Shown: positions 1 through 26,589 of the stretch, in pieces
Layout: each line of letters starts with the position of its first letter
Position numbering within the stretch: the stretch's first letter is position 1
Assembly (NCBI GenBank): GCA_963556145.1
Contig: OY744469.1
Coordinates: 3,568,767 to 3,632,766, forward strand
Direction of reading: 5' to 3'
Origin: Hygrocybe punicea
Lineage: Eukaryota > Basidiomycota > Agaricomycetes > Agaricales > Hygrophoraceae
DNA length: 64,000 nucleotides
Made by a program: the position numbers and the translations under genes
The notes under the pieces: generated by a model
The model's database searches: none
Seen by the model: only the letters and a program-made list of their open reading frames with translations
What the model was told of the DNA's origin: nothing

Positions 1-2108
1 ACCATGACAAGTTTGCCAGTCTGGGTCCTTCATGAATTTTCTATGTCCTTGAGATCCAGATTCACTGCCATTCATACCATCATGATACCACACATCACCT
101 TCTGCAGAAATTATACATGATGTAAAATGGAAATTTCCAAAGTATAAAAGACCTCGCAAACAATATCTGATCCTAGTATTGTCCACACTTTTAAACTTGA
201 GGTATTTACTTGGTTTGATTCTGTATGTGGAGTGGTCAAACAGTAATATCCCTGGGAACTGTGTATAGTGCACTGTGGATTTCAGTGCAGATTGACACTG
301 AGGACATTTATCTGCTGATTGTTGTTCGAAGTTGTTGAATGTGTGAGAAGTTGATTTTGATGAACTATGATCCATAACAAATACACAGCCCAACTTATCA
401 TCCACTGCAGGTCTGAAGAAGTCACAATTTGAACAAGTCTCTTGACTTTTTGCAATTTTGACATTGGTGGAGAATATGTCAAGTGTCAATTGAGATAGGC
501 TGGTGCCCACATGACCATAAGGATACATTAGTCTGTATTTTGCATGAAGGATTTTTCTGATGTCATCCCTTACCTTTTCTAGACTCTTTATGCCTTGGGA
601 TGCTGCCAAAAAATCAGTTCCAAGAGATTGAAGATAATTTGACTTGAGGTGCCTTGCATTCACATTCCATCGGAATCTGTTCTCATTTCAGATATCATAG
701 AGTACTGTGAACAAAGCATCATATGCACAGCTATAATTATTTCCATCCCACACCAGTCCCTGTGGCTTGTCAACAGCTGAATGTCTTTGAACTTTCTTTG
801 GAACCTGCATAGCTGCTTCATCTTCAGCCTTTCTTTTTTTTGAAACATTTTGTTCAAGGTTTGGAGTTGTTCCTTGAGCAGAAATAAACCCTGTGGAAGG
901 TTTTTCTTGTGCATTATCTTTGGATTTTGATTTTTCTTTAGTCACCAGCTGCCATGGACTATCAGTGACTACAGGTAACATAAGCATTGCATCACGATTA
1001 TTCCATGCCAAATGTGTGTCAACATTTGCAGGAACAAAACCTGTCCCTTTCCATTTCTGATATTGTCTGATTATGGTATTTCTGCGGTTTCCATCCACAT
1101 GATGAGGGAGTTCATTTTCATACCTCAGTTTGGCAATATCATCTAGTATCTCCTGTTCTCTGAACTCCTGACGCAAGTAACCAGAACAGCCCCCAGTAAT
1201 AACTCTGGGTTCAAAACCTTGTACAATAATGGTCCCATCCGCACTTGCACTCCTAGAAAGACAGGTGTAATATGATTGGTGTGAGGTGCAACTGTTCAAA
1301 TGCACAACATTTTTTGGTCTTGTCTTTCCCTGTGATGTATAGTCTGTCATAGCAAAATTGGGCAGCACCCAGGCCTGCTGTCTTTCCACACTAACTTTGT
1401 CATCACTTGGGAATGTGCATTGAATTGTTTTTTTGTCCTTGACTACAGGCACTACATTGTCAGGTAGCCCAGGGATCTGTATCAGGCGAGGTGGCTTGTC
1501 CAATTCCACAAACAAAGTGTCCAAGACTATCTTGCCATGGGGACCTATCAATGATTGCCAGCCAACAACAAATCCTTCTTGACCCTTTGTGATGCAAAGT
1601 TCAGTTGCTTCATTGTTGCGTATCATCACAGGCATGCCAAGACACAAGGAAAGTTTACCTGGAAAATGATCTGTTGCACCAGGCCTCAGACTCCATATGT
1701 GTGTTTGTTCTTTGAGAGACATGTCCCTTCTCTTTTGAACAGATTTAATTTTTTTGTTGATTTTTTTAGCCTCAAACAAGGCAGGATCAGGTGAATTTCC
1801 CCACTGGTCAGTAGAATAAAAATGAACCAACTTCTGTCCTGTATCTATGGCAAATCTTTCACATCCAATCATGTTAATCTGGTCCTTCTGTGTGTGTCTA
1901 CCACATATGACAGCAACATTCCTGAACTCTTTGGCTGCCAACTTGGGCTGGTCTGCTCGTTTACCAGCAACAAGACTCCTATGAAATTTGATGTCATCGG
2001 GTATACATTTTCCATATCTCATGTTCACCAGAGCTGTTCGAAGTTGGGCATCCCTTGGTGTTTGCAACTTTTGTCTCATATTTTGTCTCAGTATCACAAC
2101 AGTGGTTA
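1..2108 (-). pseudogene. HLE copy B, 3' part: PIF1 helicase C-terminal half plus USP-like protease domain
   Basis: This is the C-terminal part of a Helitron RepHel protein, read right to left and running off the left edge of the window. It begins just after the insertion point of copy A at 2,108/2,109 with the helicase motif LRQNMRQ. It continues through the late PIF1 motifs (TSQGKTRP, VVHLNSC, SRSAS) and a Lys/Arg-rich linker. It then enters a C-terminal domain with a cysteine box (NNYSCAYDAL), two CxxC pairs (TCSNC and KCPQC) and a histidine box (FHFTS then VWYHDGM). That order is what a USP fold with a zinc finger would show. A TGA at 688-690 interrupts the domain where copy A has Trp, so TGG to TGA is likely; the same frame stays open from there to base 1. 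Helicase identity is firm. The protease call is inferred from motif order. Confidence 0.85.
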
Positions 2109-2640
2109 TTACGAGTTCTTTATCAGACCTGGTTCAGTGAGGGTTCGTAATTAATTAATTAATTAATTGATTGATTAATTAATAAAGTTGATCGCCTATA
2201 GACAGAATTTTTTTGGGCAAGAGATATGATTCTACTTCTGATACTGGAAAATAAGATGCAGTTGGGGCCATGTGTGGACAAGCTTACATAAGCATCCAAA
2301 TATGGGTTGTCTCAGAAAATACAAACTACCTTCTAATTATATTCAAAATATTCATACTGACTTCATTTCTTCTCAGAATCAGCTGAAATTTGAACTGCTG
2401 ACTAAGATAACCATTTCGGGCAAGGTGTGACAGTCACATGTGACCACTCTAACCATATAAGGCAATTTTTGATATTATATACCAAATTGTTTGCTGATCA
2501 CAATGGTGACAGTCACATGTGACCAGTCTAACCATATAAGGCAATTTTACATAAAGTTTGCTAAATTTTATATTGATCACTATAACATTCATTGCATGTA
2601 GCAAATCTAATTATATAACACACTAATACACATTTCATCA
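2109..2640 (+). repeat. Copy A 5' terminal region
   Basis: This region is shared with all the short HLEs here. It holds the 5' terminal motif ACGAGTTC, the conserved stretch TCAGACCTGGTTCAGTGAGG, a (TTAA)n-type tract, and two copies about 79 bp apart of the overlapping palindrome GTGACAGTCACATGTGAC (near 2,430 and 2,509). Each palindrome is followed by a block close to TCTAACCATATAAGGCAATT. It could hold the replication origin and the promoter; neither is shown by sequence alone. Confidence 0.75.
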
Positions 2641-2959
2641 TGTGTTTTGGTCTTCGTGGTCCTATTTGAGCTTTAGTAAACAAATACAAATAGATGCAAA
2701 CAAAGACAAATAATATGCTCTCTTATGAATATTATCACTAGACATTTATAAGTGATGTTACAACTTGGCCACATAACAAACAAATACAAACCCAATATGG
2801 TTAGATTACTTTGTATTTCAATTTTGGTTTTGGTCAAGTTTCTTACATAATCATGATTATGTAATCATTAGTCAGATCACCATTTGAACCCAGACTTTGA
2901 ACCTTATTGTGCTTTTGCTTCTTGAACCTGAACCACCACCTTCCCCATTTAGTGCGTTA

Positions 2960-3640
2960 AGTCCGCGTTTTTTGACCTTTTTGGCTTGTTTAAGCTCAGT
3001 TTTTCATATTCAGACTCCGAAAAAATGTTTTCTGGATCAGGTGATGTGCCCGGACCATTTAGGGTCCAATGCTGACATAAGATTTCCTTTTTTAGACATA
3101 AAAGTGCAAAATTCTTCGGATTTTTGTGCTTTTTATTTCCTATGGCTCTGTTTTCTTTCCTGGACCACTGGTAATGTCTTCAATTTGTATATCTTGTTGT
3201 TTGTTAACATAATATATCATTTTACAGCCCATCTCCCTTGCAATTTTCAAAGTATGTACAAATTTCATGTTTTTTCACCTTTTTGGCTTGTTTAACCTCA
3301 GTTTTCTGTATTCAGACTCCGAAAAACAGCGATCTGGATCAGGTGATGTGCCTAGACCATTCAGGGTCCAATGCTGACATAATGTTTCCTTTTATAGACA
3401 TAAAAGTTGAAAATTCTTCGGATTTTAATGCTTTTCCTTTTCTCTGGCTCTGTTTTGTCTCATGGACCACCGGTAATGTCTTTTATTAGTGTAAATTATT
3501 ATTGGGTGACATAATCTATCATTTGACAGCGAACCCCCCTGTCAACATTCAAAGTATGTGGAAATTTCACATTTTTTCACCTTTTTTGATTGTATAAGCT
3601 CATTTCTCAACCTACAGGTTTACAGTGGTTCATTTCTGGC
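2960..3640 (+). repeat. Tandem ~301-bp repeat upstream of the copy A gene
   Basis: A block beginning TTTTTTNACCTTTTTGGCTTGT recurs at about 2,967, 3,269 and 3,570, a spacing of 301-302 bp. The first two copies are close over about 220 bp and share CTGGATCAGGTGATGTGCC and GGTCCAATGCTGACATAA. The third is degenerate. The repeats lie between the shared 5' terminus and the ORF and are absent from the short elements. They could be promoter repeats, but nothing here proves it. The 132- and 83-residue ORFs over them are by-products of the repeat. Confidence 0.7.
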
Positions 3641-3860
3641 TCAGGTATGAATGTCTTACCATTTAAGATCACATGCTGACATAATATTTCCATATATAGC
3701 CTTAAAATGTGAAATTTTGTGGATTTTTTCGATTTTTACTGCTCTTTGTGCTGGAATTTGTATTGGTATGTTGTTTATTGATCATCTCCAGATATATTTG
3801 ACATATCCATATTATTATGTAGCTTTTATTTTCAAAAAAACTATAAACCTGTTCACAAAA

Positions 3861-4930
3861 ATGTTAAAAATGTCATCCATGTCACAATGTCTTATGATTT
3901 TTATCATTGCAATGTCTTGGGCACAATGTGCTGTCATTGGGATTGGCCTTGTGCCTCCTGCAAATGTCATGCAAAATGTCCCTGTCACACCAACTGTCTC
4001 TGTCATACACAATGTCATTCTATGCCCAGTTACTTTGAATTTTTATAAAGACAATTTGCAAAAGTATGAAAATCCCCCTTATTTACCAAATTTAATCCCA
4101 ATTCATCATATTGGTCTCCAGTCCACTTCTTCCTCCACATCACCAAACCCTGAAAAATTCACAAATATCCACAACAGCACTGAATTTGTTCTTTCTAGTT
4201 GTAAATCAGCTCATCCAATTTTTCTATTTGAACTATATGCCAGAATCTTCTTGAACATGTTTGATTTGTTTTCTGTGTATCATTGTACAACCAGCATTGC
4301 TAATAAGTGCATGTATATTAAGTTGAAACTTCAACAGAATGTGTTCAGAAAACATGACTTCAGAGCTTATTTAAAATATGTAAACAAACTACCTATATTA
4401 GCAAATGGAGCCATACTGCTGTTTGTCCTAGTTCTGCATCATTTTCTAGCTTTTCAAATGGCTGGTCACTATATTTGCAATAAAACTTCGAAATTATATG
4501 ACATTTTCAAGTCTGAAAATATATCCTGTAATTCTAACCTTGATATTGAATGCATTGGTGGAGGCAAAGCAAATATATTCTCATTCCATGAACTAATGCC
4601 TACTTCAACCAATGACAATGCTAGTATGGATGCAGCTAAATATAAATTCCACTCTTACATGCCAAAAAGTGAAGCACTCTCATTGGAATCATCATCTGAA
4701 AAATCACTTGTAATTGTAAATCACCCATTTGAATTGTTGATTCCAAAGTTGACCATTGCCAACTTGAAAGTAATTGCAGCTCATCATAGCATTCTTGTCC
4801 ACTCAAAAATGAATCAGGCATCAATTCAAACTGCAATACAGAATCATGTGTGCACCAACTGTCCTGAATTTGTATCAATCTTTGAATTTATTAATGAAGA
4901 AGTAATTGCAATGCACAAGAAAACCTCAAA
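3861..4930 (+). pseudogene. Copy A RepHel gene, N-terminal segment
   Basis: This is the first coding segment of the copy A protein. The frame is open from 3,651. I prefer the ATG at 3,861 because it lies beyond the promoter repeats and gives a hydrophobic leader (LMIFIIAMSWAQCAVIG). That choice is uncertain. A second hydrophobic stretch (ILLFVLVLHHFLAF) lies near residue 200. The last ~60 residues contain KLTIANLKVIAAHHSILVHS and a CTNC motif, which align with copy B's LTITSLKLIAAVHGIYIKS and CDHC, so that end is certainly coding. The segment is cut at 4,930/4,931 by a 1.37-kb non-autonomous HLE. Joining 4,930 to 6,300 restores the frame (KTSN then TSAVNKF). Codon use and composition before about 4,550 look poor, so the true start could be further in. 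Confidence 0.6.
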
Positions 4931-6299
4931 TTACGAGTTCTTTTAATTTATTAAAAGACTCATTCTTTATCAGACCTGGTTCAGTGAAGGTTCGTAATTA
5001 ATTAATTAATTAATTCATTCATTAATTCATTAATTAATTCATTAATGTTTTTGCATCGCCTATAGAGAAATTTTTTTTGGGCAAGAGATATGATTCTACT
5101 TCTTATGTTGGAATGTAACATAAAATCTGGGCCATGTTTGGAGTGGCTTACATAAGCATCCAAATATGGGATGTCTTACACAAGACAAATTACCTCCCAA
5201 TTATATTCAAAATATTCATACACCCTTCAGTTCTCATCGGAATTAGCTGAAAATTGAACTGCTGACTAATATAAACATTTTGGGCAAGGTGTGACAGTCA
5301 CATGTGACCAGTCTAACCATATAAGGTACTTTTTGATATTATATACCAATTTTTTTGCTGATCGCAATGGTAACAGTCACATGTGACCAGTCTAACCATA
5401 TATGGTAATTTGGCATAATATATGCTAAATCACATACTGCTCATCATATTCATTACACAAATGCAATTATATTCAAAATATTTATCCTGGCCTTAATTCT
5501 TATCAGATTCAGCTGAAAATTGAACTGCTGCCTAATATTATCATTTCGGGTCAGATGTGACAGTCACATGTGACCACTCTAACCATATAAGGCAATTTCT
5601 GATATTGTATAGCAAATTTTTTGCTGATCGCAATGGTGATAGTCACATGTGATCAGTCTAACCATATAAGGCAATTTTACACCATATATCCTAAATTTCA
5701 AGGTGATCACAGGAGTCATAGTCACATGTGACCACTGTTACTATATATAGAAATATCAGCCATATAAGCAGAAATTAGTGTAACTCAGATGATATAATGA
5801 TATTTTTACTTAAAACATATAATTCAATGTGATATCGCTGTATATATTATATACTACTTATATATTTCAAGCAAAATCACTTATTGATGTTTGTAATAAT
5901 CATACAAATAAAAATTCAATAATAGAAACAAGACTTTGTTCATGCCATATGCAACATTGGTCCACTCAAGTACAGCTGTCTTCATGTTATCATCTGTTGT
6001 GCAGCAAAGTTATGGAGAAGTAGAGTTTAGCAAATGTAAGTCAATTGTTATCATACTGTTTAAAGACAGTTGTATTTGACAGTTGATGTATTGTATTGTG
6101 TTGCTCTCTTTTTTGGCTGAGAGTATTGCATAATGATGAAGTAAAGAAGACATGACAGTGGGAGAGAAAGTTGAGACATGCTATGCAGGTTTTTTCTTCT
6201 ATTTTTATGTTGCTATGGTGAGAGGTTGCTATGATGAAAGTGAGGAGAGGAAAAAAAGAACTCGTTCATGCCATGCGCAGCACTGGCCCACTAAACAAG
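4931..6299 (+). mobile_element. Non-autonomous HLE, insert 1 (1,369 bp, in copy A gene)
   Basis: It runs from TTACGAGTTC at 4,931 to CACTAAACAAG at 6,299, in the same orientation as copy A. At the 5' end ACGAGTTC pairs with ACTCGT about 20 bases on. At the 3' end GAACTCGT, the inverse of the 5' tip, lies about 35 bp inside the terminus and is followed by a GCCA...TGGC hairpin 12 nt from the end. Internally it has five copies of GTCACATGTGAC or near variants (about 5,293, 5,372, 5,562, 5,643, 5,721). The last ~330 bp match copy A's 3' tail. It has no coding capacity: it is an internal-deletion derivative of a copy A-like element. Target A^T, no duplication. Confidence 0.88.
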
Positions 6300-9200
6300 T
6301 ACCAGTGCAGTCAATAAATTTAAAGCACAACATCCTGACAAATATGCACAACGAAATCTAGCAGCCGTGCAGAAATTTCACAATGAACACCCTGATAAGC
6401 ATGCCAAACAACATCTAGCAGCTGTGCAGAAATATCAGAGTGAAAATCCAGAGAAACATGACAAACAACATCTAGCAGCTGTGCAGAAAATTCAGAGTGA
6501 AAATCCTGACAAACATGCAAAGCAAAATCTGGCAGCTGTACAAAAATTTCAGAGTGAAAATCCTGACAAATATGCAAAGCAAAATCTGGCAGCTGTACAA
6601 AATTTTCAGAGTCAAAATCCTGACAAGCATGCAAAACAAAATCTGGCAGCTGTGCAGAAATTTCATGTGGAACATCCTGAGATGCATGCAACACAAAACC
6701 TTGCAGCTGTTACAAAATTCAAAGTTGATCATCATGAGAAGCATCTGCAACACATGTTAGATGCAGTTAGAAGACATACTATGAACCACCCTGAGCAGCA
6801 TGCACAAACAAATCAGATTGCTGTTCAAACATACAGAGATAATATTCAATTCCCTCCAGAACCACCTTCAGCAAAATTGCAACACTCTATAATTTCAGGA
6901 TTTTGTAGTGATGCCTCTCCCAACAAATTTATCGAATCTGGTTGTGCTGTCTGTGGAATATTGACACCAATTCTGGAATTGCAAAGCTACACAGACTTGA
7001 ATTTAAGTTGTTTGAAACAAGCTGGTATAACTCAAAAAGAGCGCTTCTCAATAAATGATCCAATTGAATTTTCAGAGAGCCCTATAATAATTGAAGATCT
7101 CCATGGTATTTGCAAGAAGTGTTGCAAATCTTTGGTCAGAGGAAAATGCCCAGCTATGTCTCTGGCAAATGGTTTATGGCTTGGACAAATTCCTAATGAA
7201 TTAATTAATTTGTCTTATGCAGAACAACTGTTAATTGCTAGAGTGAGACACAATAGATGCATTGTTAGGGTTTCTTCAGGAATGCACAAGATGAGAGCAA
7301 ATGCCATTACATTTGCCAATCCAACTCCAAAGATTTTTGACATTTTACCCCCACCTGTTGATGAGTTGGATGAAGTACTTGCATTCATTTATACTGGACC
7401 ATGCAAACCTACCAAGTCTGATTTTGAGAGAACACCATTGCTTGTTAGAAGAAACAAAGTTGCAACTGCTTTGAATTGGTTGAAACTGAATCACTGTGAC
7501 TATTTTGACTTGGAGATTTCAGAAGAAAACTTGAAACAGTATCCTGAGAATGACATACCAGTTGTGGTAGATTACAGACAATCATTCATTAACAAAAACC
7601 CAGAAGCTACTGCTGTTAATGACATGGAAGAGGAAGAAGGAACTGAGACTGGCATGTGTCCATTTGTAGTTCATGGTCTAACAGGTGAAGAGTACTCTAC
7701 CAAAAGTATCAAAGCCATCAAAGCTATTGCATTAAAACATCTGATGGATAATAACAAGATTTTGGCAATTGGACATGAGAGTGATCCACAATCCATCTAT
7801 AACAATCCTCAGTTGTTTCCTCAAATGATGCCATGGTTGTTTCCCTATGGACTTGGTGGAATTGGTAACTCACTGATTCAAGGCAAGATTTCTGAAATCA
7901 AACACAAGAGACACTTGTTAATGTACTATGACAAGAGGTTTCAAAAAGATCCACACTTTCCTTTAATTGCATTCAACCATGAGCAAATCAAAGAGTCTAC
8001 AACAGCTGGCTATTTATTAGCTGAAAAGGCAAAATTTGAACACATTTCACAAAGATTGATGGATGTTGATCTTGGAGTGTTGAATAACATTGCTAGGAAA
8101 ATGGAAGATGGTGAACATGTTATTCCAGAAACAGATGAAGAGAAACTTTGTTTCCAATTAATTAAAGACATTGATCATGTAGGAAGTCATGTAAAAGGAT
8201 CACTCACAAGTAAGAAATACATGAGAAATGAAGTCTGGTCTCTGATGTCCTTTGTGGGTGCACCTTCCTGGTTCATTACATTTTCACCTGCAGATAACAT
8301 GCACCCACTCTCCTTATATTATGCTGATACAAAAGAAACATTCACACCTGAGCTTAGAGGATATGATGAGCGCTATAGACTTATTGCAGAAAATCCAGTG
8401 GCTGGTGCTAGATTCTTTCACTTTATGGTAGAACTATTTATCAAACATGTCCTTGGAGTTGGATCAAACCATTCTGGCTTTTATGGCAACACCAAGGCAT
8501 ACTATGGCACAGTGGAGCAACAAGGACGTCTCACCCTTCACATGCACATGCTACTATGGCTCAAACGATGTTTGTCACCTCAGGAAATCAGAGATAGAAT
8601 CATGGATCCAAAATCAGATTTTCAACAAGCTTTTGTTCAGTATCTGGAAAGTGTGCACATTGGTGAATTCAGGACTGGGACTATGGATGAAGTCAAAGCC
8701 AAGAAATCTGAACAAGAAGACTACAAAGATCCCACTCAGACTCTACCTGAAGCACCCCCACCTATGTGTACAATTAGGCATGATGTGAACAGTAACAACA
8801 ATTGTCATGATTGCAAACAAGATAATTTATGGTGGAAGAGATTTGAAAACACTGTTGATCATTTGATCTTATGCTCCAATGTTCATAATTGTGGCAGAAA
8901 TAGTTCAAACAATGAGAAAGTCCAGAGAAAAGATAGACCAAGTTGCATGAACAAACATGGTAAATGCAAAGCTAGATTTCCAAGACCTTTGTTTGAATCA
9001 ACACAAGTAGACCCAAAAACAGGTGCATTGAATATGAAAAAGGGTGAAGCATGGATCAATACATTGACACCGCTGGTGACATTTCTACTTCGCTGCAATT
9101 CAGATGTTACAAGTCTTCTTTCTGGTACCGCAATCAAAGCAATTGTAGCATATATTTCTGACTATATTACAAAGCCTGGATTGAAAACCTATAGCACATT

Positions 9201-9860
9201 TGATACCATTAGAAGTGTGTTTGATAGGAACTCAGAAATGCTTGGAGGATTCATGAAAAGAAAGACAAAGCTAGAAAACTCATCACCCAGATCATAAATG
9301 CTTTGACTGCAAAACTTGAAATTGGTGGACCAATGGCTTCAATGTATCTGCTTGGGAACCCTGACCATTATACCAGTCACAAATTCATTCCTGTTTATTG
9401 GAGAAACTATGTGAAAGAAGTCCAGAAAGCTTGGAATTCAGATGAAAATGATGACATGCAAGTTGACTCTGAAAAAGTTGTACTGCACAATCAAAAGGGA
9501 AAATTCATAGGATTATCTGCTGTACATGACTACATTTACAGACCAGCTCATTATGAAGACATGAATTTATATGAATGGGTGCAGGGTGCAGAAAGAGTCA
9601 AGAGAAACATTCAAAAACCTCATGATGAAATAAACAGTGATGATGAGTTAGATGTCTTGGAATCTGAGCCACAAACTGCAACTCACAAAAAAACTTCGAG
9701 ATCTAATGTATCTACCAGTAATGACTTGAGCATAGAATTTGATGATCTGAACATCAAAGATGATGACACTTTCATAGAATGTGATTCAGAGGACAATGAG
9801 TCTGATACCACTAAGTCTGTGCAAGAAGACACCAAGCATTTCCTAGAATATCACCCATTA
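6300..9860 (+). pseudogene. Copy A RepHel gene, Rep/HUH nuclease segment
   Basis: This segment carries the Helitron N-terminal and Rep domains, which nick and join single strands during rolling-circle transposition. In order: nine 19-residue repeats (6,319-6,831); a Cys cluster (CAVCG, CKKCC); the region around PQMMPWLFPYGLGG and LIAFNHEQIK; the HUH metal motif LHMHMLLW (His codons 8,539 and 8,545); a second Cys-rich stretch (CMNKHGKCKARFP); and the paired tyrosines of AYISDYITKP (codons 9,151 and 9,163). A single-base loss at about 9,262 ends the first frame at 9,297. The frame then resumes as AKLEIGGPMASMYLLGNPDHY and runs to 9,860 through an Asp/Glu-rich linker. Copies B and D read through that point, so this is damage, not an intron. 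The segment is cut at 9,860 by insert 2. Confidence 0.88.
6319..6831 (+). repeat. Nine in-frame 57-bp repeats (19 aa)
   Basis: Nine tandem 57-bp units encode variants of the 19-residue unit FQSENPDKHAKQNLAAVQK. The outer units are the most diverged and units 3-6 the most alike, as expected from unequal exchange inside the array. The unit is charged, probably helical, and rich in Lys, His and Gln. Copy B has no such array at the corresponding place (it reads KSLVKRRREANVRAVRKYKN there), so the expansion is specific to the copy A lineage. Confidence 0.9.
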
Positions 9861-11023
9861 TTACGAGTTCTTTTAATTTATTAAAAGACTCGTTCTTTAT
9901 CAGACCTGGTTCAGTGAGGATTCGTAATTAATTAATTAATTGATTAATTAATTAATTGATTAATTAATTAATAAAGTTGATCGCCTATAGACAAAAATTT
10001 TTTGGGCAAGAGATATGATTCTACTTCTGATACCAGAAAATAACACCATGTTGGGGCCATGTGTGGACAAGCTTACATAAGCATCCAAATATGGGTTGCC
10101 TCAGAAAAGACACATTACCTTCAAATTATATTCAAAATATTCGTACTGACTTCAATTCTTATCGGAATCAGCTGAAAATTGAACTGCTGACTAATATAAC
10201 CATTTCGGGCAAGGTGTGACAGTCACATGTGACCAATCTAACCATATAAGGCAATTTCTGATATCATATAGCAAATTTTTTACTGATCGCAATGGTGATA
10301 GTCACATGTGACCAGTCTAACTATATAAGGTAATTTTACATGATATATGCTAAATTTTGAGGTGATCACAGGAGTCATAGTCACATGTGACCACTGTTAC
10401 TATATATAGAAATATTAGCCGTATAAGCAGAAATCAGTGTAACTCAGATGATATAATGATATTCTTACTCAAAACATATAATTCAATGTGATATTGCTGT
10501 ATATATTATATGCTAATTATATATTTCAAGCAAAATCACTCATCGATGTTCGTAACAATCAGACAAATAAAAATCCAATAACAGAAACAAGACTTTGTTC
10601 ATGCCAACATTGGCCCACTTAAGCACAGCTGTCTTCATGTTATCATCTGTTGTGCAGCAAGGTTATGGAGAAGTGGGGTTAAGCAAATGTAAGTCAATTG
10701 TTATCATACTGTTTGAAGACAGTTGTATTTGACAGTTGACATGTTGCTCTCTTTTTTGGCTGAGAATATTGTATAATGATGAAGCAAAGAAGACATGACA
10801 GTGGGAGAGGAGGTCAAGACACGCTATGTAGTTTTATTTTTTCTACTTTTTATGTTGCTATGGTGAGAGGTGGGCTTATTAATATATAATATATGCTATA
10901 TGTCTTCTATCACATGTAACATGCTTTATGCAATTTAATATTATTATTTACTTCATCATAAAAGTGAGGAGGGGAAAAAAAGAACTCGTTCATGCCATGC
11001 GCAGCACTGGCCCACTAAACAAG
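9861..11023 (+). mobile_element. Non-autonomous HLE, insert 2 (1,163 bp, in copy A gene)
   Basis: It has the same termini and orientation as insert 1 (TTACGAG at 9,861, AACAAG at 11,023) and an intact 5' hairpin. Three palindrome copies lie near 10,223, 10,303 and 10,379. Joining 9,860 to 11,024 restores the frame (EYHPL then YETHC), which matches copy B's NHPQQESHY region. Target A^T. Confidence 0.88.
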
Positions 11024-11424
11024 TATGAGACACACTGCATAGAATTCAGTGAAAAGAAGAAGCATGTTGTTCCAAACTTTGTTGGTGGTTCACTGCCCAG
11101 ACGTGATAGAGGAGACAGAGAATACTATTGCATCACAATGCTCACTCTGTTCAAACCATGGAGATCTGGCAATGACCTCAAAAGTAACCTAGAATCATGG
11201 GATGAAGCATTCACTGATCATGAATTCACTGACAGGCAATTAGAAATTATGGACAACTTTAATCTGAGATATGAATGCTTAGATGCTAGAGATGACTATT
11301 CTGCTCAGCTTAGACAAGGAGCAGTTTTGGATGGTACTTGTCCTCAATTTATGACTTCAGACATGATTTCACACTTGGATGATGACAACATTCAAAATGG
11401 TGGTGACTTTGGAGATGACAATTA
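11024..11424 (+). pseudogene. Copy A RepHel gene, linker segment between Rep and helicase
   Basis: This short coding island lies between inserts 2 and 3. It reads NFVGGSLPRRDRGDREYYC, a tract shared with copy B (NFLGGSLPWCDRGDREYYC), then FKPWRSG, LRYECLDARDDYSAQL and an Asp-rich tail ending DDNY. The first conserved block is typical of the region joining the Rep domain to the PIF1 helicase in fungal Helitron proteins. Its own function is unknown to me. The apparent ORF start at 10,928 and the C-terminal FSGPVLRMA come from the flanking inserts and are not part of the protein. Confidence 0.8.
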
Positions 11425-12603
11425 CTTGTTTAGTGGGCCAGTGCTACGCATGGCATGAACGAGTTCTTTTTTCCCCCTTCCGACTTCCATGATGAAGTGA
11501 GCAATAAGATTAAGTTGCATAAAGCATTTTACATATAGTATGAGACATATAGCATATATTGTATATTGCAAATTGTTCTAATCAGTCCACCTCACACCTC
11601 AGCAACATAAAAAGTAGACAAAATAAAACTACCTAGTGAGTCTTCAGTCTTCATCAACCTCCTCACTTACTGTTATGTCTGCTGTGCTGTATCATCTTGT
11701 AATAGTCTCAGCCATAAAAGAAATGTTCAAGGAGCAACAGGTCAACTGCCAAACATAACCATCTCCTAAATAGTATAATAACAATTGACTTATATTTTCT
11801 CAACCCTACTTCTCCATGACCTTGAATGCTGTATAACAGATGAGTCATCAATATGAAGACTACTGTACTTGTTAAGTGGGCTAATATTGCACATAGCATA
11901 AACAAGTCTGTTTTCTTTCATTTTATTTGTACGATTGTTACTCACATTAATAAGTGATTAATATACAATTAACATATATAATATTGTGCGATATCACATT
12001 GAATTTTATGTTTGAAGTAAAAATAATAGTGGATAATCAGAAATAAGCTCATTTCTGCTTATATGGCTGATATTTCCATATATAGTAATAGTGGTCACAT
12101 GTGACTGTAACTCATGTGATCAGCTCAAAATTTAGGATATATAGTGTAAAATTGCCTTATATAGTTAGACTGGTCACATGTGACTGTCACCATTGCGATC
12201 AGTAAAAAATTTGCTATACAATATCCGAAATTGCCTTATATGGTTAGAGTGGTCACATGTGACTGTCACACCTTGCCCGAAATGGTTATATTAGTCAGCA
12301 GTTCAAATTTCAGCTGATTCTGAGAAGAAATGAAGTCAGTATGAATATTTTGAATATAATTAGAAGGTAGTTTGTATTTTCTGAGACAACCCATATTTGG
12401 ATGCTTATGTAAGCTTGTCCACACATGGCCCCAACTGCATCTTATTTTCCAGTATTAGAAGTAGAATCATATCTCTTGCACAAAAAAATTCTGTCTATAG
12501 GCGATCAACTTTATTAATTAATCAATCAATTAATAATTACGAACCCTCACTGAACCAGGTCTGATAAAGAACGAGTCTTTTAATAAATTAAAAGAACTCG
12601 TAA
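11425..12603 (-). mobile_element. Non-autonomous HLE, insert 3 (1,179 bp, reversed, in copy A gene)
   Basis: It is reversed relative to its host: the plus strand starts CTTGTTTAGTGGGCC at 11,425 and ends AGAACTCGTAA at 12,603. Palindromes lie near 12,091, 12,172 and 12,252. Joining 11,424 to 12,604 restores the frame (DDNY then EQDKNNTEYG). The target is A^T, which is symmetric, so it obeys the same rule as the forward inserts. It is the closest relative of the 34,097 and 44,855 copies but keeps the full GAACGAGTTC that they have lost in part. Confidence 0.88.
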
Positions 12604-14895
12604 TGAGCAGGACAAAAACAACACAGAGTATGGCACTAACAAATACTCTGAACTTGGTCAACATGGTAGACTGATCAAAGCTCAAATGGATGCCACTGAG
12701 AACATTGTCAGAAACATTGGTTGGCTTGATCCATGTCCAGATGGTTCTATTACAGTAAATTCAGCTCCACTTGAAGTTGAAATGAATCAACCTGGTAGTC
12801 AATGGAAACAACTTGTTCAAGAACAGAGACAAGAAATACTAGATGAGCGCAATCAATATATTCCTGCAAACTCAAAGTCTGTTTCACACAAAACATATGC
12901 TGATGCAAATGAAAACAATGTGATCATTGTGGACCAGTCATACTTGATGCAATCTTTCAGAGCTGCAAATGCACAGAGACAACAGGTAATTGATGCCACA
13001 GTTAGAAAATTCAGCTTGAACACTGAGCAGAAAAGAGCCTTTAGGATTATTGCAAATCACACTTCGTCTCCCAGCAGTGACCAGTTGAAAATGAATATTG
13101 CTGGAATGGCTGGCACTGGAAAATCACAAGTCATCAAAGCAGTTGTTGATTTCTTTGACAATGTACATGAGTCTCACAGATTTGTTATTCTTGGTCCTAC
13201 TGGTACATCTGCAGCGCTACAAAATGGCTCAACTTATCACTACTTCCTGGGCATCAATCCAAACATGTCAAATAGAAATGAAGCAATGGGTATTGCTCAG
13301 CTCAAGGGTAGATTAGAAGGAGTTGACTATATATTCATTGATGAAGTTTCAATGCTGTCTTGTCATGATCTCTACAAAATCAGTGCGAGACTGGCTAAAG
13401 CTTTGAACATACATGACATCCCATTTGGTGGAATCAACATCATATTTGCTGGAGACTTTGCACAGTTACCACCAGTTGGAGGTGCACCATTGTACAGTGG
13501 AACAGTTGGCACTCAGATCACATCAGCCTTGACAACACACTCTCAGGAAACTGCAATTGGAAAAGCACTCTGGCATCAAGTGACCACAGTGGTGATTCTC
13601 AGAGAAAACATGAGACAGAGGACACAAACAACTGAAGATGCATTGTTCAGAACTGCCCTTGTCAACATGCGCTATGGCAAATGTACCGCACAGGATATTC
13701 AATTTTTGAGAACCAGAATTGCAGGCAAGCGTCCAGACCAGCCCAATGTTGCCTCCAAAATTTTTAGAAATGTTCCTATCATATGTGGCATTCACTCACA
13801 GAAGGATCAGATTAATCTTCTTGGATGTGAAAGATTTGCTTCTGACACCAACCAGAACTTGACCAACTTCTATTCCATTGACAAGTGGGGAAAAGACAAG
13901 GATTCTGTTAGACGCAAGTCCAAATCAAAAGCTATACATCAATCCAGTGACATAGACTGTGATACACAAAGAGAGATATGGAAAGTGCGACATGCTGCAA
14001 CTGACAATTTTCCTGGAAAACTCTCATTGTGTCTTGGTATGCCTGTCATGCTTCGCAACAATGATGCTACTGAGCTCTGCATTACAAAAGGACAAGAGGG
14101 ATTTGTTGTTGGCTGGCAGTCAATGAAAGCAAGTCATGGCAGAAGAGTACTTGACACCTTGTTTGTTGAACTAGACAAACCTCCAAAGCTGGTGTAGATT
14201 CCAGGACTTCCTGACAATGTGGTGCCCATTGTAAAAAACACCAAGACAATTCAGTGTGTATTTCCAAATGACCTGAAGGAATCCATTGAGAGACAACAAG
14301 TCTGGGTGCTTCCTAACTTTGCAATGACTGCTCATGCTGCTCAAGGAAAAACACGTCCATTCAATGTTGTGCATTTAAACAGTTGCTTCAACCATATGTC
14401 ATATTATTCTTCATTGTCTAGAAGTGCTTCTGCTGCTGGAACTGTAATCATTCAAGGCTTTGACACTAAAGTGATCACTAGAGGTTGTTCTGGATATCTT
14501 AGACAAGAATTTAGAGAACTAGAATTGCTTGATGAGATTACCAGGCTCAGATATGAAGGTGCTTTACCTGACCACATTGATGCTGGTACACGCTCTGTTA
14601 TGCTTCAAAACTTTCAGCAATGGAAGGGAATTCACTATGTTCCAGCCAAAACTGATAATGCTCTTAAATGGTCACCAACTGATCCATTGCTATTGGCTCG
14701 TACAGTCCCTGATAGCCCATGGCAATTGGTTGAAAAAGGCAAAGGAAAACAGAAAGCAGGTGTAATTGCAACTTCATTTGTCCCAGCAAAAGGCTCAGTT
14801 GCTATTGGTTCAACCCAAAAACATTCACTGGACACAAATAATGAACCAGTAGCTAAAAGGCCTCGGATCACCAAAGACCAACCAAGGATCCACAA
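12604..14895 (+). pseudogene. Copy A RepHel gene, PIF1-type helicase segment
   Basis: This is a superfamily 1B (PIF1/RRM3-like) ATPase-helicase, which unwinds the displaced strand in Helitron transposition. It shows the Walker A motif GMAGTGKSQ (about 13,105-13,130), Walker B YIFIDEVSML, motif III GDFAQLPPVGG, RENMRQ, and late motifs AAQGKTRP, VVHLNSC and LSRSAS. A TAG at 14,195-14,197 replaces the Gln codon in KPPKLVQIPGLP (copy B reads RLIQIPGLP). The frame resumes at once after it. Near 14,893-14,900 a tandem CAAG duplication (+4) throws the reader out of the frame of the following protease-like domain. The basic linker before that domain (KRPRITK) resembles a nuclear localisation signal. 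Confidence 0.9.
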
Positions 14896-15719
14896 GCAAG
14901 CAACAGGTCATTAACTCTCCAGCTGGACTGATCTGGGATAGAAATGACTACAGCTGTGCATATGACTCATTGTTGGTCATTCTGTTCAATCTGTGGAAAG
15001 ACAATCATGCAGAGTGGTCCACAGTATTCAGAAGCATGAATGATCATTTGACCACATTGTCTCATGGTTTTCCACAGGTGTTGCACAAAAATGTGGCATT
15101 TGAACAGCTAAGAGATCACCTTAGAACTACACTGCATAACATGAATCCTACAGACTTTCCTAGAGGCACTGTGGGCATCAGTGTTGCAAATCTGGCTATG
15201 GAGTTGTTTAAAGTCAATAACATTGTAGCCTCTTCTCAACATGAATGTTCTCAATGTGACTTTGCAGAAGAACCCATTGATGACAGACTAGGCTATGTGT
15301 TACATGCTGATGACACCATTAAACAGTCTACCATGAAGTGGATTGATACCTTGTCACAGAAAACCAATAGAAGATGTCCTGATTGCAACAGCAGAATGAA
15401 TCAACTTGTATTTTATAATGAAGCACCACACATTCTTGTTCTAGAGTATCCATTCAAAAACATTGAAACCAGTCATAGACTAGAATTTGTTTCAGAGACT
15501 GACACAAAGACATTAGAACTTAGAGGCATTGTATATCATGGTCAATATCATTTCACATCACGTATTATTACTCCACAGAAACAAGTATGGTATCATGATG
15601 GAATGATTACAGGCAACTCTTGTTCCAGAGAGACTGACCTTACACAACTTTCAGACCATGATATCAGACACTGTAGAAATAGAAACCTAGTACTAGCTAT
15701 TTATGCTCAGAGCCTTTGA
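14896..15719 (+). pseudogene. Copy A C-terminal USP-like cysteine protease domain
   Basis: This domain follows the helicase in the same protein once the 4-bp duplication at about 14,895 is allowed for. It has a Cys box (DRNDYSCAYDSL, Cys codon 14,955-957), two CxxC pairs (ECSQC, RRCPDC) spaced as in a zinc finger, and a core strand ILVLEYPF. A His box (YHFTS followed by VWYHDGM) and the terminal strand LAIYAQ complete it. Ubiquitin-specific proteases have this order: Cys box, CxxC/CxxC finger, then H-[YF]-T with a downstream W-Y-x-x-D. The same architecture is seen in copy B and, as a fragment, in element C. Alternatives are a SUMO-specific USPL1-like enzyme or an inactive fold. Animal Helitrons are known to carry OTU-type proteases; this domain does not look like OTU. 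Confidence 0.65.
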
Positions 15720-16174
15720 GCATCCTCCTTGAGGTCAAGCACGGCTTTCTTCATGTGGTAATCTGTTGTGTAGCATTCAAGGTCATGGAGAAGTAGGGTT
15801 GAGCAAATGTGAGTTAATTGTCAGCACACTGTTTGGGGGGCAGTTGTATTTGGCAGTTGACCTGTTGCTCCCTGAGCAATTGCTTCATGGCTGAGAGTGT
15901 TGCATGATGGTGCAACACAGGGGAGATGGCAGGTAGAGAGGAGGTTGATGAAGACTCAAGACACTCTTATGTAGATTTATTTATTTTATGCTACTTTATG
16001 TGTGGCAGAGGTGGGAGGTGGGCTTAGTAGATCAATATGCAATATGCAACACATGCTATGTATCTTATGCCATATGTAACATGCTTTATGCAATTTTGTT
16101 AATTCAGCAAAGAAGTGGGGAGGGGGAAAAAAGAACTCGTTCATGCCATGCGCAGCATTGGCCCACTAAACAAG
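15720..16174 (+). repeat. Copy A 3' terminal region with inner inverted repeat and 3' hairpin
   Basis: About 400 bp of 3' tail are shared with the short HLEs, for example TGGAGAAGTAGGGTTGAGCA. It ends with AAAAAAGAACTCGTTC, the inverse of the 5' tip but about 35 bp inside the end, then a hairpin-forming GCCATGCGCAGCATTGGC, then the last 12 nt CCACTAAACAAG. A hairpin about 10-12 nt before the 3' end is typical of Helitrons. An inner, asymmetric inverted repeat is described for the Helentron/Helitron2 branch. Confidence 0.75.
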
Positions 16175-19100
16175 TCTGATGCCAGAGGCATTTCCCAATG
16201 GCAGCCTCCTGGTCACGCACAGTTAATCCAGCATGAAGTTGGGTTGACACCACATTGCTATATAGTGTCTTGCCCCTACAGGAGGAAGCTGGGCAAAATC
16301 ACCTGCAAATATAAAGTTGATGCCTCCAAATGGTAGTTCATATTCATCAAGGGCTTTTGCTAGCTGAGAACTAATCTTGTACAGTTCATGACAAGCCAGC
16401 ATGGAGACCTCATCAAGAAAAATATAGTCAACACCTTGCAACCTTTCCTTGAGCTGTGCAATGGCCATATTTTTAGACTTTGGGTTTTGTGAACTAACTA
16501 CTTGAATTCCTAGAAAAGAGTGATAGGTTGACCCATTATTTAGTGCTGCTGCAATTCCTGTTGGTCCAAGAATAACAAACCTGTGTTGCTCCTTCTGTAG
16601 AGTAAAGAACTGAATGAGAGATTTAATCACCTGAGACTTTCCTGTACCTGCCATGCCTCCAATGTACAACTTTAGCTGCTCAGGGTCATGTTGAGTGGCA
16701 TGGTTGGCAACAATTTGAAATGCCCATTCTTGCTCTTGATTTAATGTCTTGTCCCTGACCATTGAATCTATGTGATCTTGAGACAATTTTGTCTGGGCTT
16801 CAAAGGATCGATACAAGTAGGATCTATCAACAATTTTCACTTGATTTTCCACAAACAACTCAGAGGTGACATGTTCAGTGGCTGACTTATTCAAGTTCCT
16901 ACAATACAAGTATTTCTTTCAGACAGCACCTCCTTGCGCTTGTCATTTACAGTGGCCTTCCATTTTGAACCCAATTGTATACAACTAGGTTCAATTGGCT
17001 TCTCTTTCACAGAATCCAAACCATTAGGACTGTTGTCAAGCCAACCAGCAGCTTGCATGCAATGTTTCATGGCATCCATTTCAGCCTGTTTGAGAATTCC
17101 ATATTTTCCAAGCCTCATGAACAAGTCTATGTCCTCCTCCTGGTGATCATCGTATGCTTGATCAACATCATCATCAATCAAGTCAATGTCATCATTGTTT
17201 TCAACCAAGTCAGAAGTCAACCATGAAGCAGACATTTGGGACAAGCTGTTTTTATGTTTTAGCTGAGCAGAATAGTCATCTCTAGCATCATTGCACTCAT
17301 ATCGGATGTTGAAATATTTCATCAGCTGTTTCTGTTCTGCAGTGAATTTATGGTTAGTAAATGTCTCATCCCAGCTGTAATCATCCTCCTTCAAGTCTTC
17401 TTTTTTTCTCCAAGGCTTGAACATTGCCAACATAGTAGCACAATAGTATTCACGATCACCTCTATCACACCAGGGTAGGCTCCCACCAAGAAAGTTTGGT
17501 ACTTTGATCAGACGCTTGCTATTTGACACTACATAATGAGATTCTTGCTGAGGATGATTATCTAGAAAATAATAATATTGCAGACCATTTGTTTGTCTTT
17601 GCCCTTCACCATCATCAACAGCACTCATAACATCAAGTTCATCTTTTTCATTATCTGAATCTACATCATCTACATCATCTACATCTTCTGAATCACTTTG
17701 TTGTACCTCATTAAGAATGTCCTGAGAAGGTTTGACAATGTTTAGTTCATCATCAGAAGATGCATCATCTGTAATGCCAGGTTCAGATTTAGTTGTCAGA
17801 GGTGTCTTCTTTGATTTCTTATTAGGTATCTTACATTTCTGAGCTGTCTGTATCCATGTGTACAATGACATGTGAGAGTATGACAGTGGCCGATATATGT
17901 AGTCAAACACAGCACTGTATGCAACATACTTCCCTGCCTTGTTTTGAATGACAACCTTTTCTGAAGCTTTTGAGGAACCCTCAGCATTGTTATTGCACTC
18001 TGGTTCAAAGAATATGTGATGAACAAAGCTTTTCCAATAAAAGGGAATAAAATCATGGCTTCTATAGTGGTCAGGATTTCCTAGGAGATACAAGGCAGAC
18101 ATTGGGGTCCCAATCTCTGATTTTGCTGTAAATGAATTCATCATCTGTGTGACCAACTTTCTAGCCTTTTCTTTTCTGGAAAATGATCCACTTAGCATTT
18201 CAGAATTCCTCTCATAGACTCCTTTGATGCTGTCAAACATTGTATATGTCTTTAAAGCAGTCTTTGTTACATAGTCTGATATGTATGCAACTACTGCTTT
18301 GACTGCTGTACCTGACAACAAACTTGTGACATCTGTGTTGCATCTCAGCACATATGTAAGGACAGGTGTGACAGTATTTAGCCATGGTTCACCTTTCTTG
18401 ATATTTAATGCACCTGTCTGTAGATCTACTTCTGTCTGCTTAAATACAGTGTGTGGAAATCTGGCTTTGCAATTTCCTTGCTTGTTGAAGCAGGTTGGTC
18501 TTCTCCCATTTTTGCCTCCTCCACACTTATGAACATTAGACTTCAACAAAATATCATCAACTGTGGTTTTGAACTTACTTTGCCAAACTTGATGCTTTTT
18601 GCACCTGGCACAGTCATCTTTTATAGGGTGCTTACATAGAGGAGGAGGTTGCTCAGGAAGAGTCTGTGTAGGATCTTTATACTCTGGGTCCTTAGCAAGA
18701 CATTCAACATCAGATGCAACTTTCTCCATAGGTCCAGTCATAAATTCCCCTACATGAACACTCTCCAGATACTTCACAAGTTTCTTCTGAAAGTTGGACT
18801 CTGGATCCATGATTCTGTCTCTTATTTCCTGAGGTGATAAGCTCCCTTGGATCCATAGAAGTAGGTGGAGATGCAAAGCTAGCCTTCCCTGTTGTTCTAC
18901 TGTGCCATAATATGCTTCTGTGTCTCCAAATGCACCTCGGTGATCAGAACCTACACCTAAGACATCCTTGATAAAAAGCTCACAAAGGAAGTGAAAGAAT
19001 CTAGCACCCGCCACCGGATTTTTGCTCATGAGTTGGTAACGTTCATTATAGTCTCTTAAGAGTGGTGTAAAATCTTCTTTCTTATCTGCCCAATAGAGGG

Positions 19101-20854
19101 AAAGAGGATGTAGATTATCAGCTGGAGCAAAGGTAATAAACCATGATGGTGCTCTCATAAATGAGATAAGGGACCATATTTCATTTCTCATGATTTTCTT
19201 GTTTGTGACAGACCCCTTTATATGTCCACCAACATGATCAATGTCCCTCAACAGCTTAAAGCAATTTTTTTCCTCTTCAGTTTCAGGGACAATTCTTTCC
19301 TCTTGGGCCATGCGGGTGCATAGACTTGTCAGAACTGTCTTATCAATGTGCAACAACCTGTTGGTGATCTCATCAAATTTTTGTTTGTCAGAGAGAATGT
19401 ATCCTGCTGTTGCTGTGTCCTTGATCTGTTCATGGTTGAAGGCTATCAGAGGAAAATGAAAATCTTTCTGGAACCTTTTGTCATGATATAACAAAAGATG
19501 ACGCTTGTACATCAGGTCTGAGATGTGACTATTTTTTTGGTATTGATTTCCTATGCCTCCAAGGCCATATGGGAACAGCCAAGGCATCATTTGAGGGTAC
19601 AGTTGTGGGTTATTATACAAAGACTCTGGTTGACTTGCATGTCCCACAGCAAGGATCTTTCCATCCTTCATCAAATGTCCAATAGCTATTGCCTTTAGAG
19701 CCTTTAATGTTTTTGTTGAGTATTCCTCTCCTGTAATCCCATGGACTGCAAAGGGACATGGACCTGAGGAAGTCCCTGCCTCTTCTTCATTATCATGAAC
19801 TGAAGTTGCCTCCTGGACTTTATTATTTATAGAAGACAAATATTCCACAATAACTGGAGGCCCATCTTCTGGGTATGACTCAAGATTTCTCTGGGAGATT
19901 TCAAGATCATAATAGTCACAGTGATTTAACTTGAGCCACTCAAGGGCATTTCCAACTTTATTTCTCCGCACCAACAATGGTGTTCTTTCAAAGTCCTTGG
20001 GAGTAGGTTTAAGGGGCCTGTATAAATAAAAGCCAATATTTCATCCAACTCATCTTTAGATGGTGGCAAAACATCATACACAATTGGAGTTGGATTTGCA
20101 AAAGATATAGCATTAGCAGTCATCTTATGCCACCCAGAGGACACTCTGACCAAGCATCTATTGTGACGAACTCTTGCCACCAACAACTGTTCTGCAAATG
20201 TTAAATTTGCTAGTTCAGGAGGCACATGTCCTAACCACATACCATTAGCTAGGGAAACTTTTGGAAGTTTGCTTACAGTCAGCGACTTATGACATCGGGA
20301 ACATATGTGTTGGAGGTTAGACTCAACAATTGGGCCCTCAAAACATTCTACAGGATCATCCACAGTCTTTCTTTCCTTCCGAGTGATGCTGTCAAGGCAT
20401 TGCAGCATATCCAAATTAACTGATGCATCTTTCAATAGCACAGACTTTGATTTAAGGGACAGCTCACCACATACAGCACATCCTACCTCTTCAAAATTTT
20501 TAGATGACATATCCTTACACCAAGCTTTAACAATTTCATGTTCCATTTTCTGATCCAATGGAGATGGTGGAAATATTCTCTTATTTTCTATACTATCTAC
20601 AAGTGGGTCTGATTTCTTCTCATACTTGGTATTTCCTTTTGCCAAAGGAATGTTACTGTTAAGACATATTTTTGTATTTTTATATTTTCTTACAGCCCTG
20701 ACATTAGCTTCTCTTCTTCTCTTTACCAGAGATTTAGCAGGTTTAAATAAAGTAATACAATTCTGACAATGGTCGCAATTGTGGTCTTGTATGATTTTTA
20801 GAACTTCTGGTAGAGGTGTTCTACTCTTGATATAAATTCCATGAACTGCAGCAA
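16175..20854 (-). pseudogene. HLE copy B, middle part: Rep/HUH nuclease and helicase N-terminal half
   Basis: Read right to left, this continues copy B after element C and stops where copy A entered. It has a Cys cluster (CAVCG, CSRCH), the Helitron N-terminal region (MMPWLFPYGLGG), the HUH motif LHLHLLLW, the tyrosine motif AYISDYVTK, an acidic linker with repeated VDDVD, the block NFLGGSLPWCDRGDREYYC, and PIF1 motifs GMAGTGKSQ, FLDEVSML and GDFAQLPPVG. Three single-base frame breaks are visible by comparison with A: about 20,017 (after IYTGP), about 16,910 (after ERNT), and about 16,285 (after LPPVG). It has no 19-residue repeat array. Copy B must predate copy A, since A sits inside it. Confidence 0.88.
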
Positions 20855-21489
20855 TTACGAGTTCTTCCATTTATGGAAAACTCGTTCTTATAAACCTGGT
20901 TTTCAGCCATTGAGGTGATTCATTCATTCATCTCAGGGACTGAGGGAAAATTGTGTCCCAATATGGCAACTGAGTTCAAAATCCCGTTTGACTGGTTTCA
21001 TTCCAGAATTCAGAGCCTCTATTGACTTGCACACTGCATAGACTGTCACCAGATTTGACGAGGAGGATGTCATGGGGACTGTCCTGCTGGAAAAAAAATA
21101 TGGAGGGGATCTGGTATGATTTGGGCTCTCTGTGAGCCATTTTTTGCCAAGGAAATGAGTATAGATGCAATAACTAATGTTATACTGCCAATAAAAATGT
21201 GGTAATTTCTAACTGTATTTTAGTGTATGTCTGGGTCACTTTTGTCCACTGAAGGCAGTTGTAAAATGTGATATCTGAGTCTCTAGAATGCAAACAAGCA
21301 AGAGTGGTCCGGAGTTGTGGCTGAAATTAGAGCGGAGTCTTAAATATACAGTGAGAGCTTTCGAGCTCAGATGAGTGCACAAACCTTCTGTTGCTCAACA
21401 GCAACATCGTCGAGGGGGTGGTGTAACAGAGGTATGGACATAGTTTTATTGTCCTTGGTCTAGTACTGATGTCTGTACCCCCCGCAACC

Positions 21490-22400: not shown

Positions 22401-22866
22401 CAGGCCTTCCATTTTTGACTCATATATTTACTTATATTTAATTATTAAATAGAAATTAAATATTATATAATCAATTTCCAAATTTATCTTTGAAATCTAA
22501 ATGCTACACTTGTAACACATCATCTGCTAGTGCATAACATGCTATTCTACTGTGTTGTGTTCCTACTGCTCCTGCTGTTCCCCATTCCCTCTGGTCTCAA
22601 TAGTTCTCATGTCTGTTTTATGGTTCCTTTCTTGTTGTCAGTGACACATTCTGACCATTCATTTAACTTGTGTTGCATGACAGGCCAATGTGAATGCCAA
22701 TGCATCATTGCATATGTGATTTCTTCACAAAGACGGGTTGGTTTATCTGACCATTGATTGAAGCACCAGAAATCTCTGGTGGCCTTGTTTACACCGTACA
22801 CGGCTCGGTCCACTATGTAATGTTTCAATTATACAGCTGTACCATATACTATACAAAACACCTGAG

Positions 22867-23157
22867 TTGCTGGTATTAGAATATCCCAACATAAACATGA
22901 TTACCAGCCATCAAATAACTGTAAATGTAAATGACAAGTCAGTAAATTTGTATCTAAGAGGTATTGTATATGTTGGAGGATATCACTCTACATCTCAATT
23001 CATATCAGAAGATGGCACAATTTGGTATCATGATGGTATGACAACTGGAGCAACATGTAAGCAAGATGGTCACATTGGTATCATGTCAGATCATGGTTTT
23101 AAAAGATATGAAGATAAAATTCTTGTGCTAGCAGTTTATGCTCAAAACCAGTAATTT
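22867..23157 (+). pseudogene. USP-like domain fragment in element C
   Basis: The last ~95 residues of the HLE protease domain survive as an open frame: LVLEYPNINM, LRGIVYVGGYHSTSQF, IWYHDGMTTG, and the end VLAVYAQNQ. These align with copy A's ILVLEYPFKNI, LRGIVYHGQYHFTS, VWYHDGMITG and LAIYAQSL. The Cys box and zinc-finger cysteines are gone. The His-box strand is well kept compared with the rest of element C, so the loss of the upstream gene may be fairly recent. As it stands it cannot be an active protease. Confidence 0.75.
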
Positions 23158-26560: not shown

Positions 26561-26589
26561 GAAAAACCAACAAAATTACACACCGGTGT

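Follow-up and report, generated by a model that had tools for sequence, protein, structure and literature searches.

A predicted USP-like cysteine protease domain at the C terminus of Helitron2-like transposases in agaricomycete fungi

What use could a rolling-circle transposon make of a protease? The question is raised by a 64,000-nucleotide stretch of the genome of Hygrocybe punicea (assembly GCA_963556145.1, contig OY744469.1, positions 3,568,767 to 3,632,766 of the forward strand), referred to below as the window and numbered from its first letter. It contains element B, a Helitron2-like rolling-circle transposon, and an earlier note on this DNA had placed a cysteine protease resembling the ubiquitin-specific proteases (USPs) behind the helicase of its RepHel protein. 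As judged from sequence and structure prediction, the RepHel of agaricomycete Helitron2-like elements probably ends in a clan CA cysteine protease that is USP-like, has an active site that looks intact, and would remove ubiquitin, stabilizing the transposase or reversing silencing marks. Computation supports the presence of such a protease through the predicted fold, the conserved Cys-His-Asp residues, the aromatic residue after the His, the zinc-ribbon cysteines present in most of the domains, purifying selection, and the constant place of the domain behind the helicase.

Sequence features and distribution of the domain

The domain of element B is the following:

14925..15716, plus strand: USP-like cysteine protease domain of B, 264 aa, at the C terminus of RepHel (Cys11, CxxC 108/111, CxxC 151/154, His209, Phe210, Asp225)

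The open reading frame (ORF) at 14853-15719 (+) holds all the features from which the domain had originally been recognized, namely, the Cys box (Cys codon 14955-14957), two CxxC pairs (15246-15257 and 15375-15386), the histidine box HFTS (His codon 15549-15551), and the WYHDG motif with its Asp at 15597-15599. The limits given in the earlier note, 14896-15719, are right to within ∼30 bases.

The recurrence of this domain is far above chance. The host genome (92.2 Mb in 42 contigs) yielded 135 scored matches from 796 first-look candidates. In the protein database, a search with the domain alone gave 70 of 178 candidates, the weakest with an E value of 1.7e-19, and the domain was present in 17 of the 186 candidates among full-length RepHel proteins. 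Named matches come from Tricholoma, Galerina, Collybia, Mycena, and Flammula, all members of the Agaricales, and most of the hits are metagenome proteins; Tricholomella likewise appears among the database names of relatives. The automatic UniRef name of P0046 from Galerina marginata begins “USP domain-contain,” so this domain has already been picked up by a database.

A search with the Rep region returned 501 relatives; the best 120 of these, together with the uninterrupted copy P0072 and 9 more proteins from the domain search, made up a set of 130. The domain is present in 106 of them, including all 98 whose tail past the helicase-end motif is 250 residues or longer, a count that includes 10 proteins picked by the domain or from this genome and 8 found by both searches. 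Exclusion of all domain-search proteins leaves 112, of which 88 carry the domain, including 80 out of 80 with a long tail; this recount leaves the odds as they were. Of the 24 proteins that lack the domain, 7 stop fewer than 250 aa past the helicase-end motif and 17 (lengths 1610 to 2094) do not have that motif; truncation is the likely cause.

Conservation and selection

All 103 near-complete domains, at a median pairwise identity of 30%, have the catalytic Cys and His; the triad is completed by Asp in 101 cases and by Asn in 2. In 102 of the 103 domains, the residue next to this His on its C-terminal side is aromatic, and all four zinc cysteines are kept in 72. In the 85 near-complete domains that had not been selected by the domain itself, the third triad residue is Asp in 83 and Asn in 2, the aromatic residue is present in 84, and the four cysteines are present in 57. 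In a first set of 71 relatives, the Cys was found in 56 of the 57 sequences reaching that site, the His in 70, and the Asp in all 71. The earlier note had proposed a survey of fungal RepHel proteins and the conservation of the catalytic Cys and His as checks, and both results speak for its proposal.

In the 55 of the 130 proteins in which all three patterns matched, domain distances track Rep and helicase distances (Mantel r of 0.81 and 0.88, respectively), as expected if these regions evolve together. The domain is under purifying selection: in four pairs of uninterrupted copies (dS of 0.14 to 0.20), its ratio of nonsynonymous to synonymous substitution rates (dN/dS) is 0.23 to 0.27, compared with 0.05 to 0.08 for Rep (three of the four pairs) and 0.37 to 0.41 for the linker; the helicase ratio comes from a single pair, L010/L012. 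Between subfamilies, the dN/dS of the domain is 0.08 to 0.37; because these pairs (dS of 1.2 to 4.1) are partly saturated, weight was put on the four uninterrupted-copy pairs.

Relationship to the USPs

Foldseek comparisons of two predicted models give a USP fold, with papain-like thumb, palm, and fingers, over the whole domain, which favors the USP-like reading of the earlier note. The matches include USP54, USP46, USP12, USP1, and Ubp8, at 10 to 16% identity in the fold lists. The SUMO protease USPL1 (C98) is also a fold match of similar length; in both lists, the USPs stand above it, with lower root mean square deviations and more residues aligned. Matches in BFVD are mainly giant-virus USPs, with coronavirus papain-like proteases further down. 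The catalytic Cys falls in the USP register in an ungapped reading of VIA row starts (one row being off by one), and the catalytic His does so by hhalign.

A USP profile was sought in viral contigs, where 9 stretches were found and none was confirmed; a search there with the domain pattern gave 7 stretches, again none confirmed. Host USPs were therefore used for the profile: PF00443 has 20 matches in the genome, none at a listed place of the Helitron-like element (HLE) domain, and seven of them were spliced. Compared with these, the domain profile gave an E value of 7.7e-7 and a probability of 91.7 (reference C6a), and E values of 1.5e-6 and 5.4e-6 when either of two other references was used. 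For C6a, the catalytic His is in register and both CxxC pairs lie opposite those of the host USP, as a putative zinc ribbon of the USP fingers. Among the controls, the best of twenty column shuffles reached an E value of 0.02, and for six other RepHel pieces the lowest E values were 0.052 with the host USPs and 0.005 with the domain. When the profile was built from 18 full-length RepHel proteins, the E value was 4e-7.

The domain thus resembles the USPs (C19) in its predicted full-length fold, the Cys-His-Asp order, the CxxC...CxxC ribbon, and the aromatic residue after the His, but differs from them in its low identity, in having no NxGNTC box, in scoring under the PF00443 cutoff, and in being fused to a transposase.

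Several observations weigh against this assignment or against an active enzyme. The Pfam comparison proposed in the earlier note bore it out only in part: no Pfam model scores above its cutoff, and the best, PF00443, stays below threshold with an E value of 0.011 (15.8 versus 23.9 bits, in P0043); it was matched at an E value of ≤0.03 in 1 of the 71 relatives. For this reason, the domain is called USP-like here and is not assigned to PF00443. Sequence and profile searches of PDB found no USP. The best local hhalign match covers residues 102 to 224, without the Cys box and ending one residue short of Asp225, and the global mode left the Cys box unaligned. In USPs, the Asp or Asn lies four residues after its Trp; Asp225 lies three residues after Trp222, so that, by eye, a one-residue gap is needed to reach the USP register. 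The canonical USP Cys box reads NxGNTCxxN. Its NxGNTC part is not kept here, position C-5 being variable (G in 33, a gap in 32, and S in 18 of 106), which leaves the oxyanion hole putative; an Asn is found at C-3 in 82 of the 106, and, from the sequence, it might serve in place of the canonical oxyanion-hole Asn. One of the four zinc cysteines is absent in 31 of the 103 near-complete domains, leaving three. Finally, the L015/L022 pair (dS of 0.07) has a dN/dS of 0.57.

The matches obtained from PDB were a sigma factor (E value of 0.19) and the zinc regions of RPA12, RPB9, and ZBTB17 (E values of 0.23 to 5.3). Pfam and NCBIfam scans of the 71 relatives gave scattered weak matches, mostly to zinc-ribbon families. 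ELMO_CED12 was matched in 5 of the 71 (best E value of 5.4e-5); in P0006, it scored 18 versus 23.3 bits over residues 105 to 159 and was taken as a chance match. No OTU family was among the 14 families matched at an E value of ≤0.03; its absence from the fold lists is no exclusion.

Element B, its uninterrupted copies, and the older element around it

The RepHel of B is encoded in several pieces upstream of the domain:

3651..4946, plus strand: N-terminal part; 89% identical to residues 5-416 of P0072; no Pfam match
6295..9297, plus strand: 22-residue-type repeats, DUF6570 (PF20209, E value of 1.4e-42), and Helitron_like_N (Rep; PF14214, E value of 4.4e-35); 90% identical to P0072 494-1485
9255..11425, plus strand: middle region, split into 9255-9860 and 11024-11425 (tblastn with P0072 1481-1816); the DNA between them has no P0072 match
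12587..14914, plus strand: PIF1 helicase (PF05970, E value of 6.1e-23) and linker; 93% identical to P0072 1817-2575; in-frame stop at 14195-14197

The frame of B is broken by this stop, by a frame change near 14877-14881, and by inserted DNA. Four copies in the same genome, L009 to L012, have uninterrupted stop-to-stop frames of 2787 to 2855 codons with the USP-like domain at the end; in P0072, the domain is residues 2592-2855. The RepHel Pfam domains occur in order in the three frames scanned (L009, L010, and L015, the last from a second subfamily), and the presence of PF14214 and PF05970 in one frame means that Rep and the PIF1 helicase form a single protein. Pfam detected no endonuclease family in these three long frames. 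The tandem repeats at 6304-6834 (+), in the N-terminal half of RepHel, are of the NPDKHAKQNLAAVQKFQSE type. At L018, two RepHel frames of different subfamilies, 2526-4169 and 4668-8999, stand in tandem, each with a stop-free USP-like end (44% and 95% identical to that of B).

The boundaries of B and the remains of other elements are as follows:

2110..16175, plus strand: element B, 14,066 bp, within the older minus-strand element A/C
16141..16175, plus strand: 3' terminus of B, its final 35 bp, which follow the inverted-repeat copy AAAAGAACTCGT and end in CTAAACAAGT
1..2109, minus strand: 3' half of element A/C (second half of the helicase, linker, and USP-like domain); 49% identical to P0072 2142-2826
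16176..20870, minus strand: 5' half of element A/C (DUF6570, Helitron_like_N [PF14214, E value of 1e-32], and first half of the helicase)
7..759, minus strand: USP-like domain of A/C, 34.5% identical to that of B, with the triad kept and one in-frame stop; runs to the window edge
22801..23148, plus strand: detached C-terminal piece of another USP-like domain copy, 5'-truncated, with His209 and Asp225 present and Phe210 replaced by Ser
63283..63999, minus strand: piece of a further RepHel, 77% identical to P0072 1374-1612; runs to the window edge

The 3' end of B is shared by 8 of 11 other copies, whose flanks are unrelated, with matching ceasing at AAACAAGT. L017 differs by one base just ahead of this end; L011 and L013 diverge before it, no 3' end of its own having been found for L011, and L016 matches B over 84 bp only. 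The 5' end is common to all four copies whose 5' flank was read, and L012 has two such ends in its flank. A 12-bp inverted repeat (ACGAGTTCTTTT) near the 5' end of four copies has its counterpart 35 bp before the 3' end of L009 and L010, and the 5' stretch of these four can fold as a hairpin with an 8-bp arm; B, whose 5' end is shortened, lacks the hairpin. On the 3' side, where Helitron2 elements have the repeat directly ahead of a hairpin, there is a stem of no more than 4 bp, located 13 bp from the end, and DNA folding there is no better than in shuffles (z of 0.16). The uninterrupted copy L010 is ∼10.6 kb long, compared with the 14,066 bp of B.

Helitron2 elements likewise combine RepHel, asymmetric terminal inverted repeats, and a 5' hairpin (PMC3627910, PMC5148889). 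HELPO of Pleurotus has a RepHel of ∼1400 aa, for which the available text reports no cysteine protease (PMC4289320), in contrast to the ∼2800 codons with a USP-like end here.

Window positions 1 to 20870 hold a plus-strand Helitron (2110-16175) inside a minus-strand Helitron of another subfamily, with a clean empty site. When the flanks of B are joined, the translation is continuous over the join and the helicase frame is restored, so that 20870-16176 continuing at 2109-1 is one element. The earlier note had counted three copies with the domain, A, B, and a fragment in C. The domain does occur in B, in A, and in a third piece, but A and C are one element and the third piece lies unconnected near 22.8 kb.

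Comparison with known Helitron proteases

The earlier note knew of OTU proteases in animal Helitrons and did not regard the USP-like domain as standard for Helitrons, a surprise that is partly justified. Deubiquitinases in Helitrons are known (PMC9741609, PMC4067079, PMC5148889), but one of USP type that is a fixed part of Helitron2-like elements in fungi looks new. No USP domain in a Helitron was described in the literature searched, which was without most subscription journals and without any bioRxiv preprints. Three VTD domains of zebrafish Helitrons cleave ubiquitin chains, and the authors consider that Helitrons may benefit from deubiquitination by different classes (PMC9741609). The domain described here likewise is of cysteine deubiquitinase type, sits in a Helitron frame, and has a proposed benefit to the element. 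However, VTDs have a D-x-H type triad and no aromatic gatekeeper (PMC9741609), whereas here the order is C...H...D, with Asp225 16 residues after His209 and an aromatic residue after the His; VTD membership was accordingly set aside. Fungal VTDs exist, and the available text does not state a Helitron location for them (PMC9741609). OTU proteases are found in Helentrons (PMC4067079, PMC5148889), and, per one review, certain fungal Helentrons carry OTU together with an apurinic/apyrimidinic (AP) endonuclease (PMC6431247). These, too, are cysteine proteases on rolling-circle transposons, but of another fold family, and OTU membership was set aside; no AP endonuclease was found in L009, L010, or L015. 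Also found on fungal transposons, Helitrons among them, are TET/JBP dioxygenases with a presumed role against silencing (PMC12730594).

Possible role and alternative explanations

In the nucleus, the domain would strip ubiquitin or, less likely, another modifier with a Gly-Gly tail from RepHel or from other proteins where transposition takes place. The transposase would then be guarded from proteasomal turnover, or a transposition intermediate protected; alternatively, ubiquitin marks that silence or abort transposition would be reversed. Either way, the data suggest that these elements shield themselves from the host protein-disposal or silencing machinery. Specificity for SUMO, NEDD8, or another ubiquitin-like modifier, in the style of USPL1 and directed at SUMO-linked silencing or DNA-damage signaling, seems unlikely, given the ranking of USPs over USPL1 in both fold lists; the zebrafish Helitron VTDs, moreover, react with ubiquitin (two also with NEDD8) and are unreactive with SUMO probes (PMC9741609). 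Slightly less likely again is an autoprocessing protease that cuts RepHel between the helicase and the protease, for example, at an F[VI]PAxG[ST]-type linker motif; Rep/helicase cleavage has been proposed for the Helentron OTU proteases (PMC4067079). The motif lies in the linker at window positions 14720-14920 and in those of RepHel relatives, which are otherwise variable; 57 of 100 linkers contain a loose form of it (shuffled mean of 0.78, maximum of 3), ending 30 to 85 residues (median of 40) ahead of the domain, and a bipartite basic stretch, placed after the motif, is present in 71 of 100 proteins (shuffled mean of 10.8, maximum of 22), both patterns having been devised after inspection of the linkers. 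By this pattern, however, 43 of the 100 have no motif. The aromatic gatekeeper of deubiquitinases selects for Gly at P2, but in the motif the position ahead of the Gly is occupied by K, Q, R, E, N, A, I, or S. A deubiquitinase gatekeeper is mentioned in PMC9741609. Self-cleavage is disfavored because an aromatic residue follows the His in nearly every domain and Gly-Gly is found in only 4 of the 100 linkers, so that polyprotein processing is the weaker of the functions suggested in the earlier note.

Helitrons pick up gene fragments, and among insect VTD domains, inactive ones are known (PMC9741609), so the domain could be a passenger acquired by capture, or a scaffold without catalytic activity. 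This is quite improbable in view of the retention of the Cys, His, and Asp (or Asn) at such low pairwise identity, dN/dS values mostly well under 1, and the presence of the domain in every long-tailed protein selected without it. That the fusion is an artefact of assembly or annotation would fit the broken frame of copy B, but the chance of this is negligible, given the four uninterrupted frames in the same genome and the 17 full-length fusions from other sources.

Other features of the window

The rest of the window contains several unrelated features. A non-long terminal repeat (non-LTR) retrotransposon occupies 48911-55207 (-), with an endonuclease and reverse transcriptase frame at 50284-53601, an RNase H frame at 48911-49942, and an upstream frame that has CCHC-like cysteines by eye and no Pfam match. 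A CxC2 cysteine cluster, associated with KDZ transposases, lies at 59594-60418 (+; E value of 1.5e-27), and an open frame at 39787-40830 (-) encodes a BAG domain (E value of 6.3e-8). Inverted GC-rich low-complexity arms at 26300-27690 (+) and 30080-31390 (-) have reading frames that, by eye, start alike.

Implications

It is reasonably likely, if less so than the presence of a USP-like protease as such, that a fungal Helitron2 lineage has a fixed, active, previously undescribed USP-class deubiquitinase in its transposase, independent of the VTD and OTU proteases of animal Helitrons. The domain would then be a new clan CA peptidase family and the third deubiquitinase class taken up by Helitrons, beside VTD and OTU. 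Pfam-based transposon annotation can overlook such domains. A testable handle is provided by the single catalytic cysteine, which can be mutated in an uninterrupted copy. A third unrelated class would argue strongly, by convergence, that ubiquitin limits rolling-circle transposition: these transposons would have gained deubiquitination at least three times, and ubiquitin removal would be a general need of their life cycle.
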